From Gracilaria domingensis (Eukaryota > Rhodophyta > Florideophyceae > Gracilariales > Gracilariaceae): DNA of 64,000 nucleotides. Every line of letters begins with the position of its first letter. The stretch's first letter is position 1. Positions 11,641 to 64,000 of this stretch are shown here, in pieces. Below the pieces are notes generated by a model. That model did no database searches, was not told the DNA's origin, and saw only the letters and a program-made list of their open reading frames with translations. Position numbers and translations under genes: made by a program. The stretch covers positions 43,955 to 107,954 of the forward strand of contig VCMS01000283.1 in NCBI GenBank assembly GCA_022539475.1, given 5' to 3'.

Positions 11641-11643
11641 ATC

Positions 11644-12543: not shown

Positions 12544-12552
12544 ACCGCTTCT

Positions 12553-19277: not shown

Positions 19278-19804
19278 AGAACTTGGCAGTTTGTAGGCGG
19301 CTCTAAGAGATTGAAAAGATGTCTTTCAAAGAGAAGAGCTAAAGAAAGAAAAAGTGTAGCAGTTGTGTGAGTCGCAAATGCCAACTTCTCATCAATTGAC
19401 TTCTATAGTTCCGGACTCCTAGCATCAATTCGTAGAGATGACATCGGCGCTCGAATGGAAGCAATCGTTAGAGTTGTTGGATGCGACATATTTGTTGGTG
19501 TCGTTATCAGTTGTGGTAGAGCTTCTACAAATCGTTTGACAGAAGCATAGCTTTTCTAATGAGTACTCATGTTTGGATAGTTGCAGAACCTGTTTGTTGG
19601 CAAAATTTGCACTTTGCTCTTGTAGCTTTAAAGTTTGATTGAATTTACTTCTCGAAATAGAGCCAGAGCTTTGATGGTGTTCTTCCCATTGCTCAATAAC
19701 GCAGAGATGGGAAAAATGTGGAAGCGAAAATGCTTCGGAGCCAGAAAATGCTTTGGAGCCATGGATTGCTGATCAGAAGTGTAGGGTTGTTCATCTTGTT
19801 CATA

Positions 19805-21542: not shown

Positions 21543-21851
21543 AAACTTGTGTGATCAGCCAAGGTCGGCGTAAACCTTATAATTCTTCTTGGTCATCACA
21601 AGGACTCTATCCGGGTTACGGGGAATTCGAGAACGTACCGACGGAAGAACGAGAACCGTCAGAAGCTCTCAGTCTACCTCAGATTGTGCCATCTTTCTCG
21701 TAAAGATCTTTCTCTTAAGGAAAGCCACTTGGAAGCGAAGCGGTGGCACCACAGTCGTCTCTAACGTCGGCTCAGGAGACGCCCCTCCCGCAGGGGGAAC
21801 TTCCAAGCTTACTTTTTTCTCGGCGTGGTCGGCCGGTGACGGCAAACACTG

Positions 21852-24070
21852 TCAAGAGTGGGAAAAAGAATTCCCAGGCACGGAGCAGATCATAGTTACC
21901 TGTTCACCCTGGTTCCGAGGTTTCTCAGTTCGAACATTCTGTCCTGTAGCAGGATTGACAAACTTGGTCCTTTGCTGGTAATAATTCTTACTCGGAACAT
22001 GAGCACGGTCAGCTGGTGAGAAAGACTCATACCACCCGATAAGTTCCCGCAACTCGGGAGCAGGCAACATGCACACGAAGGCATTATAACCGTGTGGGTA
22101 AACAAATATGACAGATGGTCGTCACCGATGTATCGAAAGATCAATTACCATCTTCTCTTCGTTGCAGTTGCGCAGTCACCCATCCTGGGCGTGAAAAACG
22201 GATGCCGTTGTTCGCGTAAGCCAGTGGAGTGGCCTCTACCCGTATCCTTCCTACAAGGAGTGCGGGGTCACCTTCCGAGTTCCGAGTGGACGATGACGAA
22301 ATGTTAGAAGATCCGTAGGAATCGGAAGCACTTCCAACGAAGTGGACGATCACGGAGTTTTCAACTTCCAAGAAAAGAGATGGAGATGGCTCGTTGACGA
22401 GGAGAGCACTTTAGCGACGGGGTTTCGTGGAGAGCCCAGCGCCGACGACTTCGCCCTCTGCCTGTGCATACTGGACCAGTTTAGGATGCATAACTTTACA
22501 TCTCTATTCGCGGTATCGTGCCACTAAAGATTTGAGTGCAGGGTCCAAACCACCCACGAACATTGTACATATCTTCTGAACAGAATAAACTTTCTATAGC
22601 GATGAAACGCTTTATTCAACCGAGTTGAGTAACCCATTTCGGTTTCTTCAGGCTTGTGTTTCGTATCTCATAGAGCGGACATCGCGTTAATAATCGCGTT
22701 TACTGTTGCATAGGAGCTCAGGAGGTATTGGAACGCCTCCGGCCAACAACAGACACCCCCGCAGATGCCTGGGACGAACCTTGGACCGACTTAAACTGAT
22801 CTTCAGACATGTCTCACAAAAAATAAAGTAAAGCGAAAAACGTTTGAATCTCGTTCAAACCAAGATTTTCGGGTACTGCAAAATGGGGGCCAGAAAGTCC
22901 AATACCCGAATTGGATCTTCGCCTTCAAAATTCTTCGTAAAGACGATATTCAGTCTTCTGATGTGGACTTTTGTCTTATCGGTGCTTCGCGAGGGGCGAC
23001 TTGACGATGAATCGCCCAATCGATAATAACGACACAAAAGCCGCTCACTGTGGGAGAGATTCTTTGGTTTCAATTCCTTGATGACGAGATGACGTCTGTC
23101 ATTCTCTCGAGAGCAAATCACTGCTTGAGTGGCATGTTTCACATTCGACTTCTTTCCGCAGGATCTACTTCCATATTGTTCTCGGTCATTATCGCTGTCC
23201 GATGCACCGGATGAAGCAGATTTCGCAGAGCGAACGCTAGAATTGGAACTAAAGGAATTCGTGTCGTAACCGGGATCCTTTGTGTACCATCGATATCGGC
23301 GAGATGTAGATCGGCAAGCCGACGAGCTTCTGAAATCCGCATCAGGCGTATCCATCGGATGTCTTCAGAGAAACCGGTAGGTCGATTACGACCAGATGCT
23401 TCTTAACAGAGGAATGGTAAGCTTGGACAAAAGCAGCTGGTACAACCATACTTCCCAAGATGGAATTCATGTCTTGACGCAAGGAGAGAATGTCATTTGT
23501 ATGATCTCCGATTTCAGTTTGGTCAAGCTTTGGTATGAGATACTGCAGATCTTAGAACAACGAGTTTTGCGCGAGCTGACTGACAGGCAGTTGAGCCTCG
23601 AGGTAAAAGTATCCATGCGTCTCAACCATATCGTCTGACCTTTCCGAATCCGGAGTACCATCGATGGGCGGCTCTCCCGCAGTGGAACCGGCAATCGGTC
23701 TCGAGGTGAGTGAAGAAGCTCTCTGGGTTTCCGGGACCTGTTCATTGTCAGATGCTTTGGCGTGGAGGGAGGCGCGAGAACGCGGAGGCCTAGGCGGAGG
23801 CACACCAGCATCTCTGGCCAAGTCGATTCGATAATTCGGCATAGGTAGCACCATACCGGACCACGGTGTATCGAATAACGATAAGATCAATTTAACAACG
23901 AAAGATCTCGATAATAAAAAGATTAAGTAACGAACAGCCAAAAAAAACTGTAGGGAGCCCACTGTTGCAAAGCAAATTCTTGAAGACCATAATATCACTA
24001 GTCTTGAGACTCTTGTACAAGAAACGAGAACAATAAAAACAACCAAGCCAGTTGTAGGTCGGGGGACCAC
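21852..24070 (-). pseudogene. Gag remnant of gypsy element 2
   Basis: The 22855-23355 segment has the Ser-rich spacer followed by RRHLVIKELKPKNLSHSERL and FEGEDPIRVLDFL, direct counterparts of the intact gag core. Further segments at 21852-22371 and 23552-24070 cover the C-terminal region and the N-terminus. Frames change repeatedly. Confidence 0.75.
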
Positions 24071-30549: not shown

Positions 30550-32235
30550 CTACTGCAAAACAACTTCACCCTCAAAGTGACTTCGATGCTTCGCTACAAT
30601 CTCTTGTAATTCTGGGAACAACTGGCGCTCTTCCCATAGCCCATTCAAGTTCAGCGCCAGTCCAGTGCGAATCATCGCCTTCCCAGCGTACGTTAACCCA
30701 TCTATATCGCGCTGACGGTTAACGTCCTGCACAGTCAGAGCTGCTAAGCTTAGAAAATAACTCTTTTTTAGATTCATAACTTTCCCAGATCCCGACCAAG
30801 CGTTCTGACTAATCTTTTCCATCTTATACCGCTCCCATCTTGCGTTCCATGCGATCTTAATCTTCTGTATTATGAACGAGTCCGCTGGCTGCACCTTGTC
30901 AGTAGCATTGGCCGGAAAATATCTGATCTCAGTGCGAATAACATCTGCTGCAGCAGCCAAAGAAGGCGTCGAGTTGTGACCACTGCAGTTGTCGACATAT
31001 AATACGCGCTTCCGGCCATCCGGCAAGGCTTTGATGACTTTCTTCTCTCCGAGCCACTGCGGCACCACTACAGTGTCCATCCATCCCTTGGGACCGCTGC
31101 GGTAGGCAACGTTCGCGACATCATCACGGACGCCGCGAATGGGGTACGACCTCTTTTGGTTTTGGAAAACCATGAAAACTGGTTCAACTCGGGCGTTTGG
31201 GCCGCCACTTATGCGAACCACGATAGTCATCCCTTCGCCTCCTGACACAACATCTGCATATTTCACATCAATTTCACCAGCAAACCCAAGTGTACGTCCA
31301 TTGTCCATGTTGATTTGAAAATGGGTCTCATCCGCGTTCTCGACGTCTTCCTCTCTCAACGATCCATCCCGAAATGCTCGGGCAACCGTACCGAGGTGGT
31401 ATGCAATTGTCTTGTTTATGAATGTTTCTTTTTCCGGAGGGATCAAATACTTTCCAGTATGCGCTCGGCTCACAATGCGAAAGCGATCAGCAAAACCTTG
31501 TATCCATCTGCGATTAATGCACTGGACAATCTTTTTCCCGCTCGAGTCCAACATATGGCTGTGGTACAAGGTGTTAGACGAAGATTGAATGAGGTGAAAG
31601 GCCAATGATTGGAGAGTTTTCCAGTTAAATTTGACTCCAAGCTTGCGAAGCCGGTCAAACGCAGCCACCATATCGATTTGTATTGCTCTGATCCAGGGTC
31701 TCATCTTTCGGCCACGACCAACTTTTGCCTTTAGATTCACTCTCTTTACGCCATTATATGTGGATCGTGTGATGCATATCCCAGAATCTTTTGAACGAAC
31801 AGTTCCGTCATCGTTGAGGTAATCAAATCGTGATCTCCAGAGTCGACTGGCTTTCTGAAGGTTTGCTTTGGGACTACTGCGGAATAAAGCTGGAAAGTTG
31901 GCAATAGATTTGGATTCAATGCGTTTGGTGCCATCTTGATCGACGCATTTTATCATCCACGTAATGATTTTGATGCGGTCGGCAATGCTTAGAACGAGGT
32001 TAGCGTTTCGTTTATTGATACGCTGAGTTGGAGCTTGATTGTCATCGATATACTCTGACTGATGCGCTGTTTGTTCGTCAAACGTGATGGAGGGCGTGGG
32101 GTTGTTGACTGAGGAAGAAGCATGCGCATGCGCAGCTCGTTGGAAGGCTGCAAGAATGGGTGATCCTGTGGTTGGAATGGACATACCTGAGTAAACTGCT
32201 TGGAGACAGCGAGCTATGTGGGATGAGCGAGACAA
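30550..32235 (-). CDS. Pogo-like DDE transposase
   Basis: Intact ORF of 561 codons, the only gene of the TIR element at 30359-32434. It would cut and paste the element at TA sites in the nucleus. An N-terminal basic region of about 230 residues includes likely helix-turn-helix DNA-binding segments (RWIQGFADRFRIVSRAHTG just before the core resembles the end of a CENPB-type domain). The core has ENADETHFQIN with the first catalytic Asp, VLYVDNCSGHNST with the second, and FPANATDKVQPADSFIIQKI with the third acidic residue (D), as in pogo-type DDD enzymes. The start Met is the first in frame; a later Met is possible. No break was seen. Confidence 0.9.
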   Translation of the reverse strand: MSRSSHIARCLQAVYSGMSIPTTGSPILAAFQRAAHAHASSSVNNPTPSITFDEQTAHQSEYIDDNQAPTQRINKRNANLVLSIADRIKIITWMIKCVDQDGTKRIESKSIANFPALFRSSPKANLQKASRLWRSRFDYLNDDGTVRSKDSGICITRSTYNGVKRVNLKAKVGRGRKMRPWIRAIQIDMVAAFDRLRKLGVKFNWKTLQSLAFHLIQSSSNTLYHSHMLDSSGKKIVQCINRRWIQGFADRFRIVSRAHTGKYLIPPEKETFINKTIAYHLGTVARAFRDGSLREEDVENADETHFQINMDNGRTLGFAGEIDVKYADVVSGGEGMTIVVRISGGPNARVEPVFMVFQNQKRSYPIRGVRDDVANVAYRSGPKGWMDTVVVPQWLGEKKVIKALPDGRKRVLYVDNCSGHNSTPSLAAAADVIRTEIRYFPANATDKVQPADSFIIQKIKIAWNARWERYKMEKISQNAWSGSGKVMNLKKSYFLSLAALTVQDVNRQRDIDGLTYAGKAMIRTGLALNLNGLWEERQLFPELQEIVAKHRSHFEGEVVLQ

Positions 32236-41408: not shown

Positions 41409-42898
41409 TCAATCGCGTGCGAGAAGTAAGTTACGCATCAGAACTTCGGCTGCCGTGCGAATCATCTCCTCCGAATGAATCGCTGAAACCGTGATCTTCA
41501 CTGCGTCCTTGGGCACCTTCAATTCATCCTCGCAGTAAACAGGACGTGAAACCAGAATGCCGTCGTTCAAGCAACGCTTCTGTACGTCAGTGAACAACTT
41601 CCCATCCGCGTCATCATCATAACGCCTTGCGAACCAAAGTGGTGAAAGCTCGTCACCATCGATGTACCAACCCGCTTCCTTCAGCTGGGCCATGTCCATT
41701 AATGACTTCATTAGCTTCACATTACACCGAAGTCGAGATACTAATGATTTTCCTTCTTGCTCTGCCACAGAGAGTGCCGCCGTCGCCGCCGCCGCCAGAA
41801 GCGGTGGTTGAGAGGCGGAGAAACAATATCTAGCTCCCGAAAGACGTCGATGTTCAACCACTTCCGTATTTCCCACACAGAGGCCACCGACAGATTCGAC
41901 GGCATTTCCCAAATCGGCGGTGCAAATCTCAACATCGTTCCGCGCGATTCCAAACTGCTGCAACGCTCCGCGCCCTCCATTTCCCAAAACGCCGATAGAG
42001 AAACTCTCATCCAGCAGCAATCGAAACTTGTACTTATTCTTCAGCGCCACGATGCGATCCAGCGGCGCGACATGCCCCGAGTTGGTGTTAATGGCCTCCA
42101 CCACAATGAACCTTCTCTGCACATGATTCTTATCTTCATACTTTTGGCAAACATCCTTCAAAACGGCCTCCAGACTGGCCATGTCATTATGTCGAAATGT
42201 GATCATGTTGGCGCGAGAAAGTTTGACGCCTGAGGACAACGCGAAGTTAATGTGTTCGTCAACAACGACAATATCGCCACGCTTGCAAAACGCTGGAATA
42301 GTGGAGTTGGATGTAGCGGCTCCGAAAGAGTACAGAATTGCGTTAGAAGAATCGCAAAACTTGGCCACCTGATGTTCACATTGCAAATGGAGATCGGTAG
42401 TGCCGTAGAAGCCACGCGGACCACACGCGCCACAGCCATAGTCGCGCATGGCCATTCGGGATCATCACTCATCATGATCTCAATCATCACGCAGCTCGAA
42501 TCCAGTTCCAAAAAGTCGTTTATCGCAAGGTCCAGCATGGAAGTTTGTTCACGAGGGTGCTCCATGCCGTCGGCGGAGCACGGCGCAGAGATTATGTCAA
42601 TGGTGACGGTTGCACCATTCACAGCTACGATGTTGACGTCGAGAGGCATTTTGTCCCGCGCGGCGTTGGGAGGAGCGGTGGCTAGCGACGGCGGGCGCCA
42701 CGACGTAAGCATGGAGGCAACGGCTGTGAACGGGTCGGTTTGTTGGAGCTGCCATGGTAGATAGGCGCGGGTGAGAGCTAGGTAGAGAATGAGCAGGAAG
42801 AAGAGCGCCTCGATGACGCGATAGTACGTCTCGGCGGAAGGGATGAATGAGAGGTGCGCCGAGAGCACTCGGAATAGCGCGAGTTGGGACGATGCCAT
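41409..42898 (-). CDS. Serine palmitoyltransferase subunit 1-like (LCB1/SPTLC1)
   Basis: LCB1 pairs with the PLP-binding LCB2 subunit at the ER to condense serine with palmitoyl-CoA, the first step of sphingolipid synthesis. The start at 42898 (MASSQLALFR) is preferred to the first Met at 43045 because a hydrophobic ER-anchor segment (FFLLILYLAL) follows at the usual distance. The catalytic-fold part reads DYGCGACGPRGFYGTTDLHL, then KRGDIVVVDEHINFAL, RRFIVVEAINTNSGH, LLLDESFSIGVLGNGGRG and HRRLSGARYCFSASQPP. The position of the PLP lysine in LCB2 is occupied by ADLGNAVESVGGLC with no Lys, typical of LCB1. About 495 residues in total, as in the family. One oddity: the N-terminal 150 codons and the remainder are in different frames, meeting near 42448-42455, with about six extra residues before the join. 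This is either a real frameshift, a small unspliced insertion or a sequence error. A CACGTG (43004) and a TACGTCA (43025) lie upstream of the start. Confidence 0.85.
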
Positions 42899-51815: not shown

Positions 51816-52671
51816 TGTGGTGCAAAACCCTCGACGGGAAGCAACAAACCGCGTCGCGGACGAGCACCTCAGGGTGTTCAGGCCCTGCTCCCTGTGAAGG
51901 GCAGTCGAGCGGCAGAACCCTCCGATAGGGCCAACACGAGCCGGGTGTAAATCCGGGTGGCCCCGATCTGGGCGTGCAGTCGGAGGTAAAAGGGGTAGAA
52001 TCGACGTAGGTATCCGGATGGTTCCGGCGAGCCACAGCGAGTGGGGGTATCCAGCCCAACGGTATGGGACGACAAAAGATCGACAAACGAGCCGCACTGC
52101 GGAGCACTGACTCGCGATAAGCGGGAAAACTCCCGAGACAAATAAAACAAACCTACAATGTAGGGCAGAGTAGCGAAAGCCGTAAGACGGAAATGACAAC
52201 AATAAAATAGATAAGAAAAGTGCCGTGACGACGGATTAGTACTCCTCAGGGACGGAGGTTGGTTGATCAGCCCGGAATTGCGGCGGTATTCCCCAGGATG
52301 GGGCTGGTGACCGTGCGCAAGCGGCAAGAAGATCAGAGCCAAAGGCCTCGTTGAGGTTTACTTCCCGTACAGTGGCGGCAAGTGCCGCCACTTATATACG
52401 GCACTTGAAAATATCAATTAAAATATCTAACTATCCGGCGCTGCCGGCCAATACACTACAGGTGTGCCCCCGTGGCATGCTTGCCACGGGGCCCGCGCGA
52501 TCGGGCCAACTTGGCACACGTGTGCAGAAATACTACCCTTCCTAGGCATACCCCAAAATAGGGGCACTACCCCAGTAGCCTCTCATAACCTGAGGTGTCG
52601 CAGCCGGTAACGGATCAACAAACTATGAAAAGCACCTCGGTGCATCCCCACAAAGGGCGTTTTGCTCTACA
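51816..52671 (-). mobile_element. 3' LTR of a minus-strand young gypsy copy
   Basis: 856 bp, TGTAGAGC...CACCACA when read on the minus strand, nearly identical to the 5' LTR of the plus-strand copy at 53775-54631. It is identified as a 3' LTR because the polypurine tract TGAGAAGGGGGAGA (minus strand of 52672-52685) directly precedes it. The rest of this copy is interrupted at 53775 by the plus-strand element. Confidence 0.9.
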
Positions 52672-52685
52672 TCTCCCCCTTCTCA
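52672..52685 (-). other. 3' polypurine tract
   Basis: TGAGAAGGGGGAGA on the minus strand abuts the TGTAGAGC start of the 3' LTR, the normal primer site for plus-strand DNA synthesis. An identical 14-mer occurs on the plus strand at 62454-62467 in the other copy. Confidence 0.85.
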
Positions 52686-52724
52686 GGCTGAGACACCGAC
52701 TCCGTCGGCTCGATACGCCTCGCG

Positions 52725-53774
52725 ATGGAGGTATATAAGGAAGTCTCCCAAGACGGGTCTGCCGAGAACTGTTCGGAGCCACCAACACCTCCGGTGTCAG
52801 TAGCGAACCTCGTCATCTCGAGCCCTCCCGCGATGTCCAACGCACCGAACGGCCCTCCGTCCTCGACGGCACGCATGCAAGTATCGAACCCGCCGTTCCG
52901 GTCTGTTCCTCTCCCGCAGTCGGCGGCTGCCTCCCAGCCGGGTTCTTCCGGACAAGATCACGCTCCAGCTCAGGCTGGTCCCGCGCCCGTGTGGGATTGG
53001 TTCAACGCCGAGATGCCAGCTACGCTGGGTGGATGGCCTACCGCAGGCGCGTTACGCATCCGGGATCCCCACCGGCACAGTTTCCTTTTTGCCCAGGCTC
53101 CCTGGTTTGACGCCGAAGCCGTTCGGGATACAGAGCTCGTCGACTCGTACGCTGTCGACGGTCAACTCCCTGGTGGGCTTCCTGCTGACGTTACCCGTTC
53201 ATGGGACTGGATCGCCCGCGTTGCGGTTATACCGAGCTGCCTGTTTGTAGGTCGAAACGGGACGAGACAATTCGCTCGCAATGAGATGGCCCGCATTGGG
53301 TACGCGCGACACTTCCGAGCTCCGAACGAACATCCGGTGCCGGCACAGTACCAGTACGATGTGGCACGTTACCGAACTTTCGGCGAGGTCGGCTACGGCG
53401 ACCATCTAGCCAACGCGTTGGACGAAATTGACCGATATTCGGATACCGTTCAGCCGCAGCAGGAGTTGATCCTGTGGGCGCGGCCGATCCTTCGCGCCGA
53501 GTTCCGGTTCCTTCGCCGTCCTGGACGGTCTCAATTTCATGAAGGCCTCCGCTTCGAGAGGAAATGGCGTTCCCGCTTCGGGGTACTGGTGCCGTACCAG
53601 TGCACGGAGGTAGAACGCATTGCGCGTCACTCCCATACTGGGCGATACCTGCCGCTGCCGTCATTCTGGCCTGCGGTCGAAGTCCCACGAGGGTGTCACG
53701 TAGAGCTACCGCCCTGCCTAACTTACATAGGCTCGTACTTCATGAACGATCCGCCTCGCGGCCTGTGGAGCATC
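52725..53774 (+). pseudogene. Antisense ORF of the gypsy family, cut by insertion
   Basis: This is the same protein as the antisense ORF at 62662-64000, here with its N-terminus but truncated after GLWSI (350 residues) by insertion of the plus-strand element. It runs opposite to gag-pol of its own element, between pol and the 3' LTR. Residues 1-110 are Pro/Ser-rich and probably disordered; from about residue 88 (WDWFNAEMPATLGGW) the sequence is Trp/Arg/Tyr-rich and globular-looking. No known domain is recognised. The Met at 52833 (MSNAPNGPP) is a good alternative start because a TATATAAG motif lies about 100 bp before it and after the first ATG. Together the two copies imply a full length of about 576 residues, or 540 from the later Met. 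Confidence 0.7.
52732..52739 (+). promoter_or_regulatory. TATA-like motif for the antisense ORF
   Basis: TATATAAG lies about 60 bp inside the LTR edge and about 100 bp upstream of the second in-frame ATG of the antisense ORF. A TATATAAG also forms the likely core promoter of the LTR at 54048. Antisense promoter activity is inferred. Confidence 0.4.
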
Positions 53775-53954
53775 TGTAGAGCAAAACGCCCTTTGTGGGG
53801 ATGCACCGAGGTGCTTTTCATAGTTTGTTGATCCGTTACCGGCTGCGACACCTCAGGTTATGAGAGGCTACTGGGGTAGTGCCCCTATTTTGGGGTATGC
53901 CTAGGAAGGGTAGTATTTCTGCACACGTGTGCCAAGTTGGCCCGATCGCGCGGG

Positions 53955-53978
53955 CCCCGTGGCAAGCATGCCACGGGG
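53955..53978 (+). repeat. 10-bp perfect hairpin in the LTR
   Basis: CCCCGTGGCA and TGCCACGGGG around the loop AGCA, in the U3 part of the LTR; present in the other young LTR and decayed in the solo LTR. Confidence 0.8.
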
Positions 53979-54047
53979 GCACACCTGTAGTGTATTGGCC
54001 GGCAGCGCCGGATAGTTAGATATTTTAATTGATATTTTCAAGTGCCG

Positions 54048-54075
54048 TATATAAGTGGCGGCACTTGCCGCCACT
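54048..54075 (+). promoter_or_regulatory. LTR TATA box followed by a palindrome
   Basis: TATATAAG (54048-54055) overlaps the start of a perfect 10-bp inverted repeat AGTGGCGGCA/TGCCGCCACT (54054-54075). Transcription of the element would be expected to start about 25-30 bp downstream of the TATA box. Confidence 0.6.
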
Positions 54076-54634
54076 GTACGGGAAGTAAACCTCAACGAGG
54101 CCTTTGGCTCTGATCTTCTTGCCGCTTGCGCACGGTCACCAGCCCCATCCTGGGGAATACCGCCGCAATTCCGGGCTGATCAACCCACCTCCGTCCCTGA
54201 GGAGTACTAATCCGTCGTCACGGCACTTTTCTTATCTATTTTATTGTTGTCATTTCCGTCTTACGGCTTTCGCTACTCTGCCCTACATTGTAGGTTTGTT
54301 TTATTTGTCTCGGGAGTTTTCCCGCTTATCGCGAGTCAGTGCTCCGCAGTGCGGCTCGTTTGTTGATCTTTTGTCGTCCCATACCGTTGGGCTGGATACC
54401 CCCACTCGCTGTGGCTCGCCGGAACCATCCGGATACCTACGCCGATTCTACCCCTTCTACCTCCGACTGCACGCCCAGATCGGGGCCACCCGGATTTACA
54501 CCCGGCTCGTGTTGGCCCTATCGGAGGGTTCTGCCGCTCGACTGCCCTTCACAGGGAGCAGGGCCTGAACACCCTGAGGTGCTCGTCCGCGACGCGGCTT
54601 GTTGTTTTCCCGTCGAGGGTTTTGCACCACAAAC

Positions 54635-54650
54635 TGGTCTCCCGACTTAG
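54635..54650 (+). other. Primer-binding site
   Basis: TGGTCTCCCGACTTAG begins 3 bases after the LTR end, the usual place and with the usual TGG complementary to a tRNA CCA end. The complementary tRNA end would read CTAAGTCGGGAGACCA; I cannot name the tRNA. Confidence 0.7.
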
Positions 54651-54795
54651 AATCGGCTTAATTGGCCAACGTTCGTTGGAGTTGGTTCGTTTGTTTGGAG
54701 CCCAGATAGCTGGGAATATCCGTTCTTACGGTTCTCTCATTGTCCGTTTTCGGAAGTTGTTTTGGTTGCCCATTGGCCGACTGTGTCGGTGAACG

Positions 54796-56805
54796 ATGTC
54801 GTCCCGTCGCAGGAGTGGCGCGCCACGTGCCGCTTCTGTGCCCGGTTCGTCCGGCTTGCCGGCAAGTTTGCCTCCGTTGCCGAAGGACGCACTGGAGGTC
54901 CCAGGCAATGGCGACCCGAAACCGGCTTCCCGGGGCCGCCGTTCTGATAACGGGACCCCACCCACTCGTGGGCCAACTGAAACCGCACCTGCGGCTGATG
55001 CCGCCGCAGCGGTTGACGTTATGTCGTCGCGGTCCGACGAGTATACCCTCCGTGAATTAGAGGCTCAGGTTCGCATCCTGCAGAACTCCCAAGTGGGCCT
55101 CATCCGGGACATTACGAAACTCCGGCAACGGCTCGATGAAGCCGGTGTCCGGGATGTTTCGAGCGACGTCCGTGTTTTACGGTCTGATGTCAACCAGATT
55201 ATGGAACACCGACAGGTGTCGGCTGGTCTGCACGAGCAGGCTGCCGCACGCCTGGACCGCCTGGCTACCCGTCTGGAGACGGTCGAGCAAATCATCGTAT
55301 CTGATGCTGTTGCGCCGGGAGCCCCGGTTTCTGAGGGTTCTCAGCACTCGCGCCGTTCCCGGGATCGTCCGGCAAAGAAGAAGGTCAAGGTTGAGTCTGA
55401 CTCGTCTTCTTCATCCTCTTCTGATGAGGAGGGCCCCAAAAAGGGATCGTCTACCGACTCTTCGGACAGCGCGGAAGAGCGCTCTCGCTATCGTGCATCC
55501 CGTTCGCGGGCTACTGAAGCCACTTCTGGCGTTGCACGAGGCCGTACGAAAGGACGGAGACACCTCGGATTGAAGGAGTTGAAGCCGACAAACTTACTGT
55601 ATCGGAAGCTACTATCTTACCGATATTATCGGCTTGATGACACGACGCCACAGAGGACCCCACGTGGGACTGGCAAAGTGCGAAATCATCTCCGACAAAT
55701 GGAGCTCACGTTAAAGCCCCACAAGTTCTCTGGGGAAGATCCAATTCTTGTCTTGGATTTTCTTAGCCGCTTCGTAGCGGAAGCCGATGTACTTCGGATG
55801 AGTGAGGCACAGGCCTACATCGCGCTGCCGTACTTTTTGACGGGTGTAGCCGAAGATCAATTCAATTCGGTTCGTGGGTCGTCTCGCGCCTCCGAAGGAG
55901 GAGTTACGTGCTGGCCGGAAGCGGTACAATATCTCCTGCGCTCTTACGCGACAGGCAATGCGATACAAGGTGCCATACTCGCGCTACGAGACACGAAGCA
56001 AGGAGCCGAAGAGCCGGAAACCGTTTATTCGACCCGCCTCAATAAGGCTTTCCACAGATGTGGCAACGTGTTCTCCGCAGCCGAGCGGTGTACGATGTTT
56101 GTTGATGGACTGGACCGATCAATTCGGACGTTGGTAGCCCATTATCGGGAGAACAAACGCCGGATTACCTATCTGGAACTCGTTCAATTTGCCCAAGCGG
56201 AGGGAGATGCAGCTCGAGCACGCACTGGTATCAAGGCGCGCACGCGCCGACTCCTTCATGTAGAAGGCCGAGACTCCTCACTGCCTCACTCGCGAGGTTC
56301 TGTTCAAGGGGGTTATGATAACCTGCACCTGTTACAGGACGATGGTTCAATGCCGAGTTCGGAATTGCCGTCGACGACGGAGCAGTCTACAGTGGACGGA
56401 GACCCCGCTCTGTACGCCGGACGTCAAGTCCCGGCATTGCCCGTGCCGCACTCTGGCGGATATCGAAGCCAACGCCCTGGATGGAGGGACCCGTATCCTC
56501 CTCGACAGGAGCGCCGGCCGCCCAACGCGGATCTTCTTCGTCACCTTATTTGTCATACCTGTTACAGGCCAGGGCACATCGCTCCGAATTGCTTAATGCC
56601 CATACGGGATATGGCGAAGATAGTGCCTCAGTATGAGTCGTTGACGCCCGCCGAGCGGGAACGTGTTCCCGACAAATCGTACCTTCGTGCGAAGGCGGAG
56701 ACTCAGCCTGGAAACCAGGAAACGGTGCCATCGAATGGTGGAACTGTAGCCGCCCCTGCGGAATCGCAACCTCCGCAGATTGGCGGCGACGCTCAGAAAA
56801 ACTGA
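54796..56805 (+). CDS. Gag polyprotein of the young gypsy element
   Basis: 669 codons from the first Met after the PBS. Residues 1-75 are Pro/Ser/Arg-rich. A coiled coil spans about 84-170 (LRELEAQVRILQ ... ARLDRLATRLETVEQII). A basic PAKKKVKVE at 192-200 resembles a monopartite nuclear-localisation signal and is followed by an acidic Ser run suited to CK2 phosphorylation. The retrotransposon gag core spans about 255-495 (RRHLGLKELKPTNL, KFSGEDPILVLDFLSRFV, VQYLLRSYATGNAIQGAILA). A CCHC zinc knuckle, CHTCYRPGHIAPNC, begins at residue 586. The stop at 56803 directly follows AAAAAC, the presumed frameshift site into pol. Gag forms the particle and packages element RNA. Confidence 0.93.
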   Translation: MSSRRRSGAPRAASVPGSSGLPASLPPLPKDALEVPGNGDPKPASRGRRSDNGTPPTRGPTETAPAADAAAAVDVMSSRSDEYTLRELEAQVRILQNSQVGLIRDITKLRQRLDEAGVRDVSSDVRVLRSDVNQIMEHRQVSAGLHEQAAARLDRLATRLETVEQIIVSDAVAPGAPVSEGSQHSRRSRDRPAKKKVKVESDSSSSSSSDEEGPKKGSSTDSSDSAEERSRYRASRSRATEATSGVARGRTKGRRHLGLKELKPTNLLYRKLLSYRYYRLDDTTPQRTPRGTGKVRNHLRQMELTLKPHKFSGEDPILVLDFLSRFVAEADVLRMSEAQAYIALPYFLTGVAEDQFNSVRGSSRASEGGVTCWPEAVQYLLRSYATGNAIQGAILALRDTKQGAEEPETVYSTRLNKAFHRCGNVFSAAERCTMFVDGLDRSIRTLVAHYRENKRRITYLELVQFAQAEGDAARARTGIKARTRRLLHVEGRDSSLPHSRGSVQGGYDNLHLLQDDGSMPSSELPSTTEQSTVDGDPALYAGRQVPALPVPHSGGYRSQRPGWRDPYPPRQERRPPNADLLRHLICHTCYRPGHIAPNCLMPIRDMAKIVPQYESLTPAERERVPDKSYLRAKAETQPGNQETVPSNGGTVAAPAESQPPQIGGDAQKN

Positions 56806-56833
56806 GCAAGGGAGCCTCCAGCAATGGAGAGGC
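56796..56833 (+). promoter_or_regulatory. Probable -1 ribosomal frameshift signal (gag to pol)
   Basis: The gag frame ends ...CAG AAA AAC TGA. The sequence G-AAA-AAC just before the stop is close to a slippery heptamer, and pol lies exactly in the -1 frame, open from before this point. About 12 nt downstream CCTCCA-GCAA-TGGAG-A-GG forms a small stem with a GNRA-type tetraloop and one bulge. The first base is G rather than A, so the site is near-canonical, not perfect. Confidence 0.55.
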
Positions 56834-59800
56834 GCCCCCAGCGACGGGGTTTAGCGCGCCTGAGGCTGAGAAGCCTCGCTCCCCGGTCACAATCCTTTCG
56901 AGGAAACTGGCCACTACAGACGTGGACTCTGAGCACCTTGGTGTCTTGCGTCGCCCGTGGATACGGTCTAAGAACAGCCGGTTCCCGGATAGAGTCCTGG
57001 TCATGGCGAAACGTAACTACAAAGTTTACGCCGACCTGGGTGTTTCCGACCAGTACATGGTTCGGCAGTTGTCCGTGCTCGATACAGGAGCTGGGCCAAA
57101 TTTCTTGGTTGAATCAATGATTCCGCCGCACTTGCGGTCTCGCGTTCGTGCGGCGCCGCAGATTGACATAGCGGATGCGAACAATCGGCCACTTTCGACT
57201 GTGGGAGTAATAGACCTGCTCGTCAGGCTTGGCCGCTACGTGGCGAAGCTCGATTTCTTGGTTTGCAAGCAACTCGCTGCGCCGGTTATCCTCGGCTGCG
57301 ACTTCTGTGACCGCTTCGTCGATGCAATTCGACCGCGGAAGCGAACCATCGAAATGGAAGATGGGACTACTGTACCGATCGTTCGGCGTCCCCTGCGCCG
57401 GGCTCTGAAGAAGCAAGTCCCTTTGCCTGCGGCACAGAAGCCTACAGCCGATGAACGGAAGTCTACAAAGCTCCGAGTAGCTCGGCCCATTTCCATCCCG
57501 CCTGAATCACAGGTCTGGGTTACTGTGACCTCCCCACAATGTGGCTTACAAACGGTACAACCGTTGCCTGCGTTACAGGAGAAGCATCAGCTTGCCCTCG
57601 CTAATGGGATTGTTTTCGTCGAACCCGAGAAGCCTTTTCAGGTGCTGGTTGCGAACTTCAGCCGTTTTTCTCAACGGTTGGTTAGGAGCCAAGTTATTGG
57701 TTCGTTGCTTCCGCACCCTGCGGCTATAGTGCCTACTCAGGTTTCTATTGCCGAGGTTCTCGGAATCCTCGAAGCTGAGGAGGGGGAGGCGGAACGGAAC
57801 AATTCCGAAACGACTGGACCGAACAGTTCGTCGGAAGATGCTACGCCGACTTCGTCGGATGCAAATAACCGCAGCCAGTCGAAGGAGGCAATGCCGACCT
57901 CGTCGGACAGTAATGATACGGACCTGAGTGCTGCTGACACGAAGGATAAGGCAGTACAGGAACTGGAGTCTCTGGATCTTGAACATGTCCCAGAGACTCA
58001 CCGCGATAAATTGCGGCACATGCTTGAGGAGTTCACGCCCATGTGGGATGGCACACTGGGTAAGATTGGTATTACCGAACATCGGATTGATTTGCTACCG
58101 AATACTCGGCCCATTTCACAGCACCCTTACAGGGCAGGACCGACAGCTCGGCAGGAGGAGAAAGCTCAAGTTGAGAAGATGCTCCGCGCTGGAGTTATCG
58201 AGCCGGCTCAGTCACCTTGGGCATCGCCGGTGGTGCTCGCGCCCAAAGCTGATGGGTCTTGGCGATTTTGCATCGATTACCGCAAGCTAAACGCGGCTAC
58301 GGTCAAGGATGTGTATCCTATCCCACGAATGGATGAATGCATCGATTCATTGGGCGACGCGAAAGTGTTCACAACCCTAGACGCGAATTGGGGCTATTGG
58401 CAAGTTCCCGTGAGGGCTGAGGATCGTGACAAGACAGCCTTCGTTTGTCATGAAGGATTGTACCGATTCAATCGGATGCCCTTTGGGTTAACGAACGCGC
58501 CAGCCACTTTTCAACGAGCTGTGGATATTTTGCTAGCCCGCTTTAAGTGGAAGACTTGCCTGGTATACCTGGATGACATCATTGTCTACTCCAGCAACCT
58601 GGATGAGCACTTGACCCACGTACGGGATGTGATGCGAGTCCTACGCGATGCAGGCATTACGCTCAAGCTCAAGAAGTGTGAGTTCTTTACCGAAACCGTC
58701 AGGTATCTCGGCCATGTTATCCGTCCGGGACGGCTTTCGATTGACGAAGTACGCGTGAAATCCCTCAAAGAGGCTAAGCATCCGAGGACGCAGACGGAAC
58801 TCCGATCTTTTCTCGGCTTGTGCAATGTGTATCGCCGCTTCATTCCGAACTTTGCGGATATCGCTGCACCTCTGAACGAGCTTCTTCGCAAAGGCCAGCC
58901 AGTCGATCTGGAAGAATTCGACAACCGCAAGGTCGCGGCTTTCTCGTCGCTCGTGGACGCGGTGACATCGCCACCTGTTTTATCCCTGCCTAGGGCTGGT
59001 TTGCCATATGCAGTAGATACGGATGCGAGCGACTACCAAGTCGGCTGTGCCCTATTCCAGACCACCAATGATGGCGAGCGATTGCCAATTGGGTATTGGT
59101 CAAGGAGCCTCAACGTTCACGAGAGGAATTACTCGGTATCCGAGAAGGAGTGCTTGGCAGTTGTCTGGGCGTTACAGACACTGCGGCCCTATCTTATGGG
59201 GACCCGCTTCATTGTCCATACCGATCATTCGGCATTACGCTGGCTACTCTCTATAGCAGAGCCATCTGGCCGCTTGATGCGGTGGAGACTTCGCTTGTCG
59301 GAATTCGACTTCGAAATCCGTTACAAGAAAGGACTCCTGAACACTCAGGCTGATGCACTGTCCCGCTTGGAAACAGCGGCTGAAGCTGCGCCAGTCGATG
59401 ATCTGGAGATACCGTGCTTCCTCGTGGAAGACGGCTCGAGCGATGCCGATGAAGAATCGGAAGGATGGGACATCTACGATGCTGTTTTAGCCGTGTCTGA
59501 CACGCAACCCGAACCGGGCTCTTTCGTACCGATCAAGCCGGAGGAACTCATCCGGGAGCAGCACACCGACCGTTTTTGTACGGAGATTCGTAGTCGTCTA
59601 AACGGTGGAGCACAGTTGCCTTTCGTCGAGAACGACCAAGGATTTCTAATCCGAACCGTCGGAAACAGGCCACAGATTGTGGTTCCGCACTCACTTCAGT
59701 CACGAGTACTGCATTTGTCGCACTACGCGAAGTTGTCAGCCCACCCTGGTGGCAGGAAGTTGTACTACACCTTACGGAAGGACTTTTACTGGCCAGCAAT

Positions 59801-61253
59801 GGCTTTCGACGCGTATGCCACTGTTCGTGGATGTTCTGACTGCGCGAAGAACCGCGTCAAACTGCGGAAGTACTCCAAGAAGTTGGTACTCTTCCCTGCC
59901 AGGGCTCCACTTGAATTCGTGGCAATTGACTTGCTCGGCGAGTTTATCCGCACTCGCCGGGGAAACCGGTTTCTACTTGTGATCACCGACCGTTTTTCTA
60001 AACTGGTACGGACTGTGCCTTTGACGAAGGTTACCGCCAGTGCGGTCGCCCAAGCTTTCGTTACACACTGGGTTTTTGTCTACGGACCGCCGATTGACCT
60101 GTTATCGGACAATGGACCGCAGTTTACGGCTAAGTTCTTTCAGGACGTTTGCCGCATCTTGCGGATCCAAAACTGGTTTACGACAACATACCACCCCCAG
60201 AGTAATGGGCAGGTTGAACGTTTTAACCGCACAATGCTCAATGCATTACGGACATTCGTTGCCGAACATCCGTCGGAGTGGGATCAATACACCGATGCGG
60301 TGACATATGCCTACAATACGCAGGTTCATCGCACTACTCAGATCTCGCCGTTCGAGCTTGTGCTATCACGCGTTCCACCTTCGGTGGCTATCGAGCCACA
60401 GCCAACTTTGGATAAGTTCCCCTCGCCTCGTCTACACAGGGACGCCTGGAAGGCCTGGCTTAAGAACATCATTCCTACAGTTAGGCAAAACATCGATAAG
60501 GCACAAGCCGCGTACAAGCGGAATTTCGACGCACGAATGCGCAGGGATGCCCCTCAGATCAGGGAAGGTAACTACGCCTTCCTACGGAAGGAATACTATA
60601 ACCCGGAAAAGGAGAAGAGGCATAAGCTCTCTCCTATCGCGGACGGCCCCTACAGGGTTATTTCTATCACCGATACAACGGTTGTCCTCGATATTGAGGG
60701 TGAACACGAGCGTTTTTCGCGCGATCGCGTAAGGCCTGCGCCACAGCCTGTTCGTCAGGAAAAGCAACCGGAAACGCCGGACAGCGCTACGCCTACTGTG
60801 GACCAAGCCGCGACAGCGGGAGAGCGCGCTTCGTTGTCAGTCCTGCCGCATCCTAGCCGCGGACTTGCTGATTTGCCGGCAAAGCCGGAAGCTAACCCGC
60901 CAGTCTCGAACGCCGCACTGATGGTCCACACGCGGATTACTGGCCCCTCAGGGATACTCACACCACCCCGACGCTCCACTGAGAAGGGCGGAGGAGAGGT
61001 AAGTCGCTCGATTTCTTGTCGCCCGTCGTCGACGGAAGTGCCTTTGCAGGCCCCGGCGCACGCAAGTCTGGTGAAAGCACGCGACGCGCGACGTACAGCC
61101 GAAGATTCGCCGAAAGAGCGAGAAACGCGCAGTTATCGCGGAAGCCTAAAGAGGAACGCACCACTTCGTGGAGCACGAAGCCGGAAGACGGAAAAGAAGC
61201 CTGTCCAGAAAGACCGTTGTTGTTACGCAGACCCGATTTCGGAGATTTTATGA
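56805..61253 (+). CDS. Pol polyprotein (PR-RT-RH-IN) of the young gypsy element
   Basis: Open from the gag stop in the -1 frame to 61253; there is no ATG near the start, so translation by frameshift is likely (residues here are counted from GTG at 56922). Protease: LDTGAGPN with catalytic Asp at residue 54. RT: FCIDYRKLNAATVKDVYPIP, RMPFGLTNAPATF and YLDD at 549-552. RNase H: AVDTDASDYQVGCALFQT from about 697, and DALSRL at its end. Integrase: zinc finger H-x-x-x-H ... C-SD-C about 930-978, catalytic Asp 1003, Asp 1063 and Glu 1099 (35 residues apart, the D,D-35-E rule). The C-terminal GPY-like segment is DGPYRVISI. A Pro/Arg-rich tail follows. All catalytic residues are intact. The order with integrase last is Ty3/gypsy. 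Confidence 0.95.
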   Translation, partial: SKGASSNGEAPPATGFSAPEAEKPRSPVTILSRKLATTDVDSEHLGVLRRPWIRSKNSRFPDRVLVMAKRNYKVYADLGVSDQYMVRQLSVLDTGAGPNFLVESMIPPHLRSRVRAAPQIDIADANNRPLSTVGVIDLLVRLGRYVAKLDFLVCKQLAAPVILGCDFCDRFVDAIRPRKRTIEMEDGTTVPIVRRPLRRALKKQVPLPAAQKPTADERKSTKLRVARPISIPPESQVWVTVTSPQCGLQTVQPLPALQEKHQLALANGIVFVEPEKPFQVLVANFSRFSQRLVRSQVIGSLLPHPAAIVPTQVSIAEVLGILEAEEGEAERNNSETTGPNSSSEDATPTSSDANNRSQSKEAMPTSSDSNDTDLSAADTKDKAVQELESLDLEHVPETHRDKLRHMLEEFTPMWDGTLGKIGITEHRIDLLPNTRPISQHPYRAGPTARQEEKAQVEKMLRAGVIEPAQSPWASPVVLAPKADGSWRFCIDYRKLNAATVKDVYPIPRMDECIDSLGDAKVFTTLDANWGYWQVPVRAEDRDKTAFVCHEGLYRFNRMPFGLTNAPATFQRAVDILLARFKWKTCLVYLDDIIVYSSNLDEHLTHVRDVMRVLRDAGITLKLKKCEFFTETVRYLGHVIRPGRLSIDEVRVKSLKEAKHPRTQTELRSFLGLCNVYRRFIPNFADIAAPLNELLRKGQPVDLEEFDNRKVAAFSSLVDAVTSPPVLSLPRAGLPYAVDTDASDYQVGCALFQTTNDGERLPIGYWSRSLNVHERNYSVSEKECLAVVWALQTLRPYLMGTRFIVHTDHSALRWLLSIAEPSGRLMRWRLRLSEFDFEIRYKKGLLNTQADALSRLETAAEAAPVDDLEIPCFLVEDGSSDADEESEGWDIYDAVLAVSDTQPEPGSFVPIKPEELIREQHTDRFCTEIRSRLNGGAQLPFVENDQGFLIRTVGNRPQIVVPHSLQSRVLHLSHYAKLSAHPGGRKLYYTLRKDFYWPAMAFDAYATVRGCSDCAKNRVKLRKYSKKLVLFPARAPLEFVAIDLLGEFIRTRRGNRFLLVITDRFSKLVRTVPLTKVTASAVAQAFVTHWVFVYGPPIDLLSDNGPQFTAKFFQDVCRILRIQNWFTTTYHPQSNGQVERFNRTMLNALRTFVAEHPSEWDQYTDAVTYAYNTQVHRTTQISPFELVLSRVPPSVAIEPQPTLDKFPSPRLHRDAWKAWLKNIIPTVRQNIDKAQAAYKRNFDARMRRDAPQIREGNYAFLRKEYYNPEKEKRHKLSPIADGPYRVISITDTTVVLDIEGEHERFSRDRVRPAPQPVRQEKQPETPDSATPTVDQAATAGERASLSVLPHPSRGLADLPAKPEANPPVSNAALMVHTRITGPSGILTPPRRSTEKGGGEVSRSISCRPSSTEVPLQAPAHASLVKARDARRTAEDSPKERETRSYRGSLKRNAPLRGARSRKTEKKPVQKDRCCYADPISEIL
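60996..61004 (+). other. Consensus-like 5' splice site in pol tail
   Basis: GAG|GTAAGT at 60996-61004 is a perfect 5' splice consensus after a complete Glu codon of pol. Splicing to an AG such as CACAGTTAG ending at 61327 would place the next codon in the chromodomain frame, which is open from 61328 to 62086. The acceptor has a weak pyrimidine tract. Splicing is a hypothesis to explain how the chromodomain is expressed. Confidence 0.35.
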
Positions 61254-61528
61254 AGCATCGAAGTAATGAAGCCGTTGAAAACACGGAGGCAACCGCCGCA
61301 CAAGCAGGGCCGACATGCCACAGTTAGGTTCGCAGCAGCCCAACGCTGCACACCGCGCGCACGCTTTCGCCAAGTTCTGGCTTCGCGCGCGATTCCGCCT
61401 CCAGTGGAGGGTGACAACACACGAGCCGGGCACGTGCCCGCTGTAAGGATTGCGGCCGCCGGAAACGGAAATTCGAATTTGAATCGGCAACGCACAGCCG
61501 TGCAACGGCGCAGGCCCCACCGCCAGCA

Positions 61529-62086
61529 ATGCTTGGCAAGGCGTCGCCTCGGCACGTGCCACGGCACCACTCGCTGGCACACCGCATTGCGGACCGTTCA
61601 CCCTCACTTCGGGAGATCTTGCCGGAACGCCGGAAGCTCGCTATTCGAGAACACCGAAGCTCGGTAACAGCCCGACAATACGGGAAGGAAAGCCAGAACT
61701 CTGGAAGCCGGAATGACATGGAAACACCATGGTCAAAATGGCTCTCGCCTGGCGTACAGGATGTCTTGCCGTCAGGACGGAAGCCGAAAGTAACCAATGA
61801 AGCCCACGACGGGAGAGGTAACAACGACACCTCGAGAGAGGATACATCGACAAAGCCGCATCCTGCGCGGAAGGTCCTCGATGAGGAGTATGTCATTGAC
61901 CGTCTGGTAAGTCACGGCTACGCCCCTGACGGGGAACTACTGTATCGAGTCCGTTGGTACGGCTACGCCTCTTCAGAGGATACGCACGAGCCCATTGAGC
62001 ACTTGCCTCGCTCGAAGGTCTTGCAGTACCACCGTCGCACACGGACACCGATACCGGCTACGCTGGACAAGGCCCAAGTGGGTTGA
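61529..62086 (+). CDS. Chromodomain segment of the young gypsy element
   Basis: The frame is open from 61328; the first Met is at 61529. Near the C-terminus (61886-62040) is a chromodomain: EYVIDRLVSHGYAPDGELLY, then RVRWYGYASSEDTHEPIEHL with the aromatic residues (Tyr, Trp, Tyr) at the methyl-lysine-binding positions. Chromoviruses carry this domain at the integrase C-terminus to guide insertion to marked chromatin. Here it is not in the pol frame: pol stops at 61253 and this frame is -1 to it with a stop at 61325. Expression would need splicing, re-initiation or an upstream frame error. The same domain is found next to integrase in decayed element 1. Confidence 0.75.
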   Translation: MLGKASPRHVPRHHSLAHRIADRSPSLREILPERRKLAIREHRSSVTARQYGKESQNSGSRNDMETPWSKWLSPGVQDVLPSGRKPKVTNEAHDGRGNNDTSREDTSTKPHPARKVLDEEYVIDRLVSHGYAPDGELLYRVRWYGYASSEDTHEPIEHLPRSKVLQYHRRTRTPIPATLDKAQVG

Positions 62087-62661
62087 CCACCCACGTTCCT
62101 ATTGAGCGCAGCCGTCTCGAACGGAATATGCCGCCTCATGCGGACAGTATTGCATTACGCAAGAATATGCCGCGTCAAGCGGGTGCAACTAAGTTAACTG
62201 AGATCACTCAGTCGCCTCAGGCGGACCAGGCCGCTCTAAGCGGACAGCTCTTTGCTGAACAAACATGCCGCGAAATGCGGAAGCCACTTACAGTGGAGAA
62301 GAAGATAAAGAAGAAAGAAGCCTAAGAAGAAGGAGAAGAAGCCAGGACACTGGAAGGAAGACTAAGAAGTTTTATCGCTACAGCCGCTTGTGCGGAAAAG
62401 TTACCCCTCTCTTGTGGGCCATTCGCAACAGCCTCAAACGAGGTATTGCCCACTGAGAAGGGGGAGAGCAAGACGAAGAGTTTGAGCCAAGCCAGCACGG
62501 CTGGAGAAGTTTACCTCTAACTATTGAGTCGCCCCTCATCATCGGGGTCTATCGCGGACTACCGTAGCCCGTAGGGGATCGCGAGCCGGGGAATTACGCG
62601 CCGGACGGCCCAGCACCTGGGGTGCCCCCACTACCGGGAGCCCCGGAGAAGCGCTGTGCCG
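62087..62661 (+). other. Non-coding spacer with mini-hairpins
   Basis: No gene seen. Four mini-hairpins of the form CCGC-N4/5-GCGG occur (near 62111, 62170, 62269 and 62384), as well as CCCCTCATCATCGGGG near 62533 and an internal polypurine tract. Confidence 0.5.
62454..62467 (+). other. Internal polypurine tract identical to the 3' PPT
   Basis: TGAGAAGGGGGAGA, the same 14-mer that abuts the 3' LTR in the minus-strand copy (52672-52685). It lies between the chromodomain and the antisense ORF. It could act as a central PPT, or be the ancestral 3' PPT left behind when the antisense ORF module was added. Confidence 0.7.
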
Positions 62662-64000
62662 CTATTGCTTGCAACTCGACTCGTCGGTCACCGTATCGGG
62701 AACGGCCACTCCCACGCCTCGAAGGAAGTCGCGAATGACCGCCGCTCGCGGAGTGAGAGAAGAACTGCCGCCCACGGCGGATGCTACATCCTGAGCCCAC
62801 GGGCCGGTCGGAGCGGGAGCCGCTACAGCGGGTGGGTCAACGATCACGACTTCGTCGTCATCTCCCGTAGTGTCGGGCTCCGAGGCAACCCCCACTGGGC
62901 TCCCCTCATCCATGGGACTTCCTCCCTCTGCAGGGTCATCACCGTCATCGTCGACGTATACGAACCCACGCGGGTGCCCTTCCGGGATATATCGCTCCTC
63001 TCGGCGGCGACCAGCCGCCTCAGCGGGGCCAATTACCTCCCAAATCCACGGGTCAAAGTATACGAAGTCGCCGGCGTTGACGTTCCGTCCGGGAGAACGG
63101 TCCGACTGCCGGCGGACTCCGTCGGAAACCTGACTAGCAGGCACCTCATTCCAGTCAATCTGGTCAATGACGTCCACCAACGCGGTGGCTTCGCGCGCAT
63201 TGCGGACCGAGCCGAGCACTTCGGAGAGATCCAACGCTCGGATCGCTTGCCGGATGAGTTCCGGGATGAACCAAACTCGGTACGAATCATATGCCTCGAT
63301 GAGGAGGAAAGCCGCAACGCGGACGGTCCATTCTGTTGCCAGGATGCTCCACAGGCCGCGAGGCGGATCGTTCATGAAGTACGAGCCTATGTAAGTTAGG
63401 CAGGGCGGTAGCTCTACGTGACACCCTCGTGGGACTTCGACCGCAGGCCAGAATGACGGCAGCGGCAGGTATCGCCCAGTATGGGAGTGACGCGCAATGC
63501 GTTCCACCTCCGTGCACTGGTACGGCACCAGTACCCCGAAGCGGGAACGCCATTTCCTCTCGAAGCGGAGGCCTTCATGAAATTGAGACCGTCCAGGACG
63601 GCGAAGGAACCGGAACTCGGCGCGAAGGATCGGCCGCGCCCACAGGATCAACTCCTGCTGCGGCTGAACGGTATCCGAATATCGGTCAATTTCGTCCAAC
63701 GCGTTGGCTAGATGGTCGCCGTAGCCGACCTCGCCGAAAGTTCGGTAACGTGCCACATCGTACTGGTACTGTGCCGGCACCGGATGTTCGTTCGGAGCTC
63801 GGAAGTGTCGCGCGTACCCAATGCGGGCCATCTCATTGCGAGCGAATTGTCTCGTCCCGTTTCGACCTACAAACAGGCAGCTCGGTATAACCGCAACGCG
63901 GGCGATCCAGTCCCATGAACGGGTAACGTCAGCAGGAAGCCCACCAGGGAGTTGACCGTCGACAGCGTACGAGTCGACGAGCTCTGTATCCCGAACGGCT
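62662..64000 (-). CDS. Antisense ORF of the young gypsy element (partial, 5' end outside)
   Basis: Open from the right edge of the window to the stop at 62662, on the strand opposite gag-pol; the first Met inside the window is at 63831 (389 codons to the stop), but the frame continues upstream and matches the left copy, which supplies the N-terminus. No known domain is recognised. Visible features: a Trp/Arg/Tyr-rich globular region (FRAPNEHPVPAQYQYDVARY, FERKWRSRFGVLVPYQ), a hydrophobic helix (VRVAAFLLIEAY), and an acidic tail with DDDEVVIVD, a pattern like a SUMO-interacting motif. It is not env-like: no signal peptide or clear membrane anchor. Both young copies keep it open. Some plant LTR retrotransposons carry antisense ORFs in this position (for example Grande and RIRE2); relation to those is untested. 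Confidence 0.75.
   Translation of the reverse strand, partial: AVRDTELVDSYAVDGQLPGGLPADVTRSWDWIARVAVIPSCLFVGRNGTRQFARNEMARIGYARHFRAPNEHPVPAQYQYDVARYRTFGEVGYGDHLANALDEIDRYSDTVQPQQELILWARPILRAEFRFLRRPGRSQFHEGLRFERKWRSRFGVLVPYQCTEVERIARHSHTGRYLPLPSFWPAVEVPRGCHVELPPCLTYIGSYFMNDPPRGLWSILATEWTVRVAAFLLIEAYDSYRVWFIPELIRQAIRALDLSEVLGSVRNAREATALVDVIDQIDWNEVPASQVSDGVRRQSDRSPGRNVNAGDFVYFDPWIWEVIGPAEAAGRRREERYIPEGHPRGFVYVDDDGDDPAEGGSPMDEGSPVGVASEPDTTGDDDEVVIVDPPAVAAPAPTGPWAQDVASAVGGSSSLTPRAAVIRDFLRGVGVAVPDTVTDESSCKQ

Follow-up and report, generated by a model that had tools for sequence, protein, structure and literature searches.

Long terminal repeat (LTR) retrotransposons are thought to require Gag and Pol only. 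A 64,000-nucleotide stretch of the red alga Gracilaria domingensis (contig C283, positions 43955-107954, hereafter the window) raises the question of whether one such element family carries a further gene, as two copies of a Ty3/Gypsy element in it keep a long open reading frame (ORF) on the antisense strand between pol and the 3′ LTR. We compared this frame among copies of its own family, which we call F1, and with related elements across the genome assembly (680 contigs, 77.9 Mb). The frame is conserved as a protein in eight diverged element families and is under purifying selection in its own reading frame. It is very probably a genuine accessory protein gene of a chromodomain-bearing Ty3/Gypsy lineage, lying in antisense orientation between the chromodomain ORF and the 3′ LTR.

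F1 qualifies as a Ty3/Gypsy family by its reverse transcriptase-RNase H-integrase order, its LTRs and a short target duplication (GCATC), and is young and high in copy number, with a chromodomain and the long antisense ORF. The two window copies were found in opposite orientations, as the initial annotation of the window had reported: copy A is a minus-strand element and copy B, a plus-strand element nested within it, interrupts A's antisense frame after codon 350 (at 53774). The LTRs of copy B are 98.96% identical over 865 columns, with 1 mismatch and 1 gap in the comparison that uses the mirror arm of a palindrome described below, and since they are nearly identical this copy must be very young. 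The frame had been described as antisense to gag-pol and about 576 amino acids long. Both statements required revision, as it lies past the chromodomain ORF, overlapping neither gag nor pol, and usually comprises 599 codons plus a stop in F1. The length of 576 codons is peculiar to copy B, in which one base is missing near the 3′ end of the frame; after this copy-specific deletion the frame ends at 62662, while homology runs on to 62597.

Frequent stops in other copies had been named as a sign that the frame is not a gene. A first look at F1 across the genome gave 1352 candidates, of which 73 were scored, so that the copy number is a lower bound; 53 of these 73 matches had no in-frame stop, and the same was true of 51 of 71 scored matches of a second family, F2. 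Among the 42 F1 copies that were aligned (L010-L051), eight contained in-frame stops.

Selection was measured on F1 copies aligned to one reference copy, using the ratio of nonsynonymous to synonymous differences per site (pN/pS) over codons 37-599 in all six frames. The six-frame comparison covered 36 of the 42 copies, 30 from a main group and 6 from a subfamily that is ~5-6% diverged from it. A mirror copy of L010 (L009B) and the partial window copy A (A_win) were excluded from the selection, start-codon and codon-position counts, and L046, which has lost its 5′ end, from the codon-position count. Mean pN/pS was 0.112 within the main group (435 pairs), 0.203 between the main group and the subfamily (180 pairs) and 0.300 inside the subfamily (15 pairs), the pairs in each case being non-independent because they share branches. 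In all three comparisons the antisense ORF had the lowest value of the six frames, and four of the five other frames gave values of 1.1-3.9. The remaining frame, on the opposite strand and sharing third positions with the antisense ORF, gave 0.18-0.40; it is not the gene, because stops are frequent in it (F1 has 13, and the copies checked from four other families have 16-27). The older subfamily is thus too far below 1 for the unselected frame that a ratio near 1 in older copies would have indicated. A comparison of L047-L051 with the main group gave a ratio of nonsynonymous to synonymous substitution rates (dN/dS) of 0.189.

The distribution of variable sites over codon positions pointed the same way. 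Sites at which a variant was common to at least two of 41 copies fell 16/18/91 at first, second and third positions, and singleton sites fell 69/65/96 (Fisher p 2e-8). This contrast is what one expects if old changes were filtered through functional copies and recent ones far less. The third-position bias is clear as far as codon 560. A parallel count on the chromodomain ORF in 28 copies gave shared sites of 6/5/0, that is, no third-position bias in a known gene; with few sites, and with part of L010 taken from the noisy mirror arm, it is not a usable positive control and we drew no inference from it.

Homologues of the antisense protein were found well beyond F1. With part of one of the window's older Gypsy remnants (20397-21044) as the query, the matches listed included many related elements at 42-75% identity. 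We fetched the 3′ parts of eight of these, picked for long pol frames and with their 3′ content unknown beforehand, and a profile of the F1 antisense protein gave a match past the integrase and chromodomain, on the antisense strand, in six of them (L057, L059, L060, L061, L062 and L063; E as low as 3e-113, best domain E-values 8e-54 to 2e-112). Follow-up searches added further groups, giving homologues in seven further families (F2-F8); the families are our own grouping by frame length and identity, not a formal clustering. Identity to F1 is 38-44% for the complete proteins of F2, F3 and F5, and 39-49% for the core rows of F2-F8. When the cores of six families were compared pairwise (15 pairs), synonymous sites proved nearly saturated (pS 0.65-0.78), yet the F6 and F8 cores share 77% of their amino acids. 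Because selection across eight families has kept it as a protein, we regard the frame as a real part of the element, not a chance frame. With three profiles, the older Gypsy remnants of the window gave no relative of the antisense gene. Searches with two short peptide patterns each gave 12 matches in viral contigs and 21 in prokaryote genomes, none of which was confirmed.

The protein consists of a conserved core, approximately F1 residues 92-480, flanked by variable low-complexity tails. The core spans ~390-410 residues and is rich in Trp and Arg, with 14-16 Trp in each of six stretches measured; the isoelectric points (pI) of the measured stretches are 5.8-7.9 and thus not strongly basic. 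An acidic VVIVD stretch, noted earlier as a SUMO-interacting-like motif, is present in 36 of 42 F1 copies, the other six (the subfamily) having VVVVV or VVVVD. None of the 16 other-family loci has it (in one, L072, a stop interrupts the region). Short hydrophobic runs close to acidic residues do occur in the other-family loci. As a general clue to function VVIVD was rejected, being confined to F1.

Several results weigh against reading the frame as a genuine accessory gene of this lineage. Within F1, a decayed copy (L046) compared with the main group gave a dN/dS of 0.436, and the last 39 codons show little third-position bias (shared sites 3/4/5). Two of the eight elements fetched, L056 and L058, had no antisense homologue in the stretch obtained. 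The gene was seen next to the chromodomain in F1, F2, F3, F6 and F7; in F4 and F8 the pol side was placed from the coordinates of separate matches, with the reverse transcriptase side and the gene on opposite strands of the same contig at a distance of ~5 kb (examples are C78, C197 and C347), and in F5 the gene was seen only beside the presumed LTR edge, with the pol side out of view. On this per-family basis, the genes have the position and orientation that define the aORF-3R class (antisense, between pol and the 3′ LTR). The protein itself gave no convincing match in Pfam, PHROGs or PDB sequences, in line with the earlier statement that it has no recognisable domain. The structure search proposed earlier was run with AlphaFold and Foldseek, and did not deliver a fold: the two models were poor (mean pLDDT, the predicted local distance difference test score, 48.1 and 48.4), and Foldseek returned nothing at E <0.001 and no credible fold match.

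The initial annotation had also proposed that the conserved ORF carries its own promoter-like motif, and this held beyond F1. One copy from each of the eight families was compared, and all eight have on the antisense strand a match to TATAWA that begins 60-63 nt from the LTR edge; it is exact in F1, F3, F4 and F6 and contains one mismatch in F2, F5, F7 and F8. Paired LTRs establish the edge in F1, whereas elsewhere it was placed by a matching CA/C-rich boundary; a C-rich stretch similar to the polypurine tract of copy A lies at the presumed edge in the other families inspected. Within F1, TATATAAG or GATATAAG is present in 41 of the 41 copies counted. The octamer TATATAAG had been correctly reported near the start of the ORF, although in copy A it falls inside the annotated frame (codons 3-5) and not upstream of it. 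The same octamer occurs on the sense strand of the F1 LTR, where it sits within a short inverted repeat, AAGTGCCG ... CGGCACTT (54040-54066).

The reading of this box as a promoter element has to be qualified. None of 20,000 shuffles attained either the exact or the one-mismatch count in a 54-66 nt window, but this result overstates significance, since the eight families share descent and both the motif and the window of positions were picked post hoc; the test therefore measures conservation and not independent origins. The LTR parts of four other-family loci contained 0, 0, 1 and 1 sense-strand TATAWA sequences, so the match between sense and antisense boxes is an observation on F1 only. Finally, the box could be something other than a canonical TATA element, as an in-frame ATG follows 7-21 nt after its start in F2-F8, which is too close for a usual TATA-driven start.

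Where translation begins is bound up with the same question. The frame as annotated implies a start at 52725, but the beginning of this frame carries no coding signal in F1, with shared sites of 2/5/3 over codons 1-36 and 0/0/11 over codons 37-72. As the signal is absent before codon 37 and present after it, Met37 (52833) was taken as the F1 start; it fits best, with the start codon still unsettled. A Met occupies the Met37 column in F3-F5 in one alignment, with F3 two columns off in another. Alternatively, translation could begin at the first in-frame ATG, with transcription from the 3′ LTR as in human T-cell leukemia virus type 1 (HTLV-1) and the box forming part of something else. All 10 ATGs between the LTR edge and the inner Met, in eight copies, share the reading frame of the gene, and in six of the eight families an ATG lies 76-82 nt from the LTR edge. 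Against extending the choice of Met37 to all families stands an IPVPR motif just after the first ATG, where differences among F5-F8 fall 6/0/17 at the three codon positions, a protein-level pattern that argues for an upstream start in these families. Over the whole interval that separates the first ATG and the inner Met, however, only 19 of 61 differences pooled from F2, F3, F4, F5 and F8 are at third positions, compared with 332 of 581 farther downstream; in the 300 nt after the inner Met, F2 (9/4/11) and F8 (10/11/12) show only a weak excess at third positions. In addition, the F6 loci have an in-frame stop between the first ATG and the inner Met (two loci, counted as one observation because they are 99.8% identical), and in F1 the first ATG precedes the box. 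We consider a first-ATG, LTR-driven start doubtful. A longer form of the protein is probably produced, or was once produced, in some families.

The remaining alternatives concern what the frame is and what its product does. A chance ORF in G+C-rich DNA, looking conserved only through the youth of its copies, would draw on the very recent insertion of copy B and on the 58-60% G+C of the region. It is contradicted by the third-position bias, by pN/pS of 0.11-0.30 where four other frames reach 1.1-3.9, by the 9-25 stops in the other same-strand frames and 6-27 in the opposite frames (five copies of five families), and by homologues in families with near-saturated synonymous sites; we rejected it on the six-frame ratios and the cross-family saturation, and it is scarcely credible. 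The function could instead reside in an antisense RNA, acting through double-stranded RNA or small RNAs with the frame incidental, as an antisense transcript covering the 3′ end would base-pair with the genomic RNA; the possibility is listed in a review (PMC7264820). An RNA role needs no reading frame, yet the protein is conserved, which makes this explanation very improbable. If the product is a protein, it could serve in the particle, as a structural component or in handling nucleic acids, and not as a regulator. The conserved proteins of retroelements are often structural, and a single core of this size, rich in Trp and Arg, would suit such a part; the lack of any Gag, Env or nucleic-acid-binding match and the pI values speak against it, and we think it unlikely. 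About equally unlikely, taken by itself, is a protein that protects the element from host silencing by small RNAs or chromatin. Anti-silencing proteins are known from plant transposons, and an accessory protein that acts in trans and, having a promoter of its own, is made even while gag-pol is silent would fit such a role; against it, the protein resembles nothing searched in sequence or fold.

Our preferred reading remains that of an accessory protein gene. Host polymerase II would read it from the box toward pol, with the box serving as a promoter of its own and gag-pol being driven independently from the LTR. The F1 product would be a protein of ~563 amino acids starting at Met37, with one core between variable tails, and would act in trans in the life cycle of its own element family. 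By analogy with the roles proposed for plant antisense genes it might regulate element RNA or its silencing, a suggestion we hold tentatively; as guesses, we would rank a regulatory or anti-silencing role first and a structural one second. A selected gene in eight families of one genome, copies free of stops and a candidate promoter together make the question of function testable, and genome annotation should call such frames neither host genes nor junk.

The coordinates of the two copies and of other features of the window are collected in Table 1. In copy B the chromodomain frame starts ~280 bp beyond the pol stop (61253-62086), and in 7 other elements with a chromodomain match the chromodomain lies ~1.1-1.4 kb past the end of the pol match. 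Beyond the end of the window the contig forms a near-perfect palindrome centred at ~C283:109285 (C283:108400-115050; L009 2400-9049). A copy at C283:110224 mirrors copy B with 99.4% identity over 4,157 columns (9 mismatches, 14 gap openings); further on, the mirror arm is 96.7% identical with 39 gap openings and then runs into a stretch of N. The palindrome is probably an assembly artefact arising from a fold-back read or gap-filling. The mirror copy was treated as one copy with B, and window copies A and B are unaffected.

Table 1. Positions of the antisense gene, its host elements and neighbouring features in the window.
Feature	Position	Strand	Basis or remark
3′ LTR of copy A	51816-52671	-	99% identity, inverted, to LTR 53775-54631
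Polypurine tract of copy A, at LTR edge	52672-52684	-	From sequence
Copy A antisense gene, codons 1-350 of open frame, truncated by copy B	52725-53774	+	
TATA-like box TATATAAG, 60 nt from LTR edge	52732-52739	+	Copies and eight-family comparison
Met37, best-supported F1 start codon	52833-52835	+	ATG in 41/41 copies
GCATC target-site duplication of copy B	53770-53774	.	Recurs after B's 3′ LTR (L009)
5′ LTR of copy B, TG...CA, 857 bp	53775-54631	+	LTR pair comparison
TATATAAG on LTR sense strand, octamer identical to antisense box	54048-54055	+	
gag ORF of copy B	54796-56805	+	ORF; zinc knuckle below cut-off, E 0.3
pol ORF of copy B: reverse transcriptase, RNase H, integrase	56922-61253	+	Domain search
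Chromodomain ORF of copy B, frame separate from pol	61529-62086	+	PF00385, E 5e-8
Copy B antisense gene	62662-64000, 5′ part beyond window to C283:108346	-	
Older Gypsy remnants, two elements	10535-13696, 15944-23124	-	pol pieces 27-66%, gag 32-33% identical
Plavaka-type transposase, long open frame	1932-5159	-	PF18759
DDE_1 transposase frame	30550-32235	-	PF03184
Host gene, serine palmitoyltransferase subunit 1 homologue	41409-42455		

Plant elements, and Boty of Botrytis, are known to carry ORFs in antisense orientation between pol and the 3′ LTR (PMC7264820). Such extra genes have mostly been described from plants, their function and origin are open, and regulatory roles have been proposed by the authors (PMC7264820, PMC11963269). 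Among the papers listed by literature searches, none dealt with an antisense gene in chromodomain Gypsy elements, and the novelty of the present case is provisional. A comparison from oomycetes is Chronos, a Ty3/Gypsy element with a chromodomain downstream of integrase (PMC5348765); in the window element the chromodomain is in a separate frame ~280 bp beyond the pol stop. Chronos has a second, plant-related RNase H (PMC5348765), whereas the pol of the window contains no plant/archaeal-type second RNase H, only Gypsy-type RNase H models being matched at E up to 1. The word "antisense" is absent from the main text of the Chronos paper (PMC5348765). The antisense gene of HTLV is likewise near the 3′ LTR, with its promoter inside that LTR (PMC7264820), while the putative box described here lies in the internal region.

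In position and orientation the gene resembles gene23 of the maize element Grande and other aORF-3R genes such as those of RIRE2 and PvRetro13, which are likewise antisense and located between pol and the 3′ LTR. Grande gene23 is reported to be transcribed from a promoter upstream of it and to have a nuclear product (PMC7264820); the counterpart in the algal elements is so far a TATA-like box. These are plant elements, compared by description, and in the algal families the distance from box to LTR edge is kept across families. Boty, from Botrytis cinerea and Sclerotinia sclerotiorum, provides a non-plant antisense ORF between pol and the 3′ LTR (PMC7264820), and is again likened by description. 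The antisense ORFs of Retand carry TRP28 (PF04195), a conserved domain of unknown function (PMC11963269). The algal protein did not match PF04195 (24 rows at E<=1 and 23 rows at E<=10), although similarity below the HMMER filters is possible, and Retand belongs to a non-chromovirus plant lineage, in contrast to the chromodomain elements studied here. It is a nearly even call whether these proteins make up an unrecorded antisense accessory family that is ancestral to a whole lineage of chromodomain Gypsy elements, with its own promoter locked ~61 nt from the polypurine tract and LTR edge; the protein might then exist both as a long form bearing a PR(K/R) motif at its N terminus and as a short form begun at the inner Met. 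If so, the algal elements would represent an independent origin of the design seen in Grande and Retand, and would point to a convergent need for a trans-acting protein expressed independently of the LTR.

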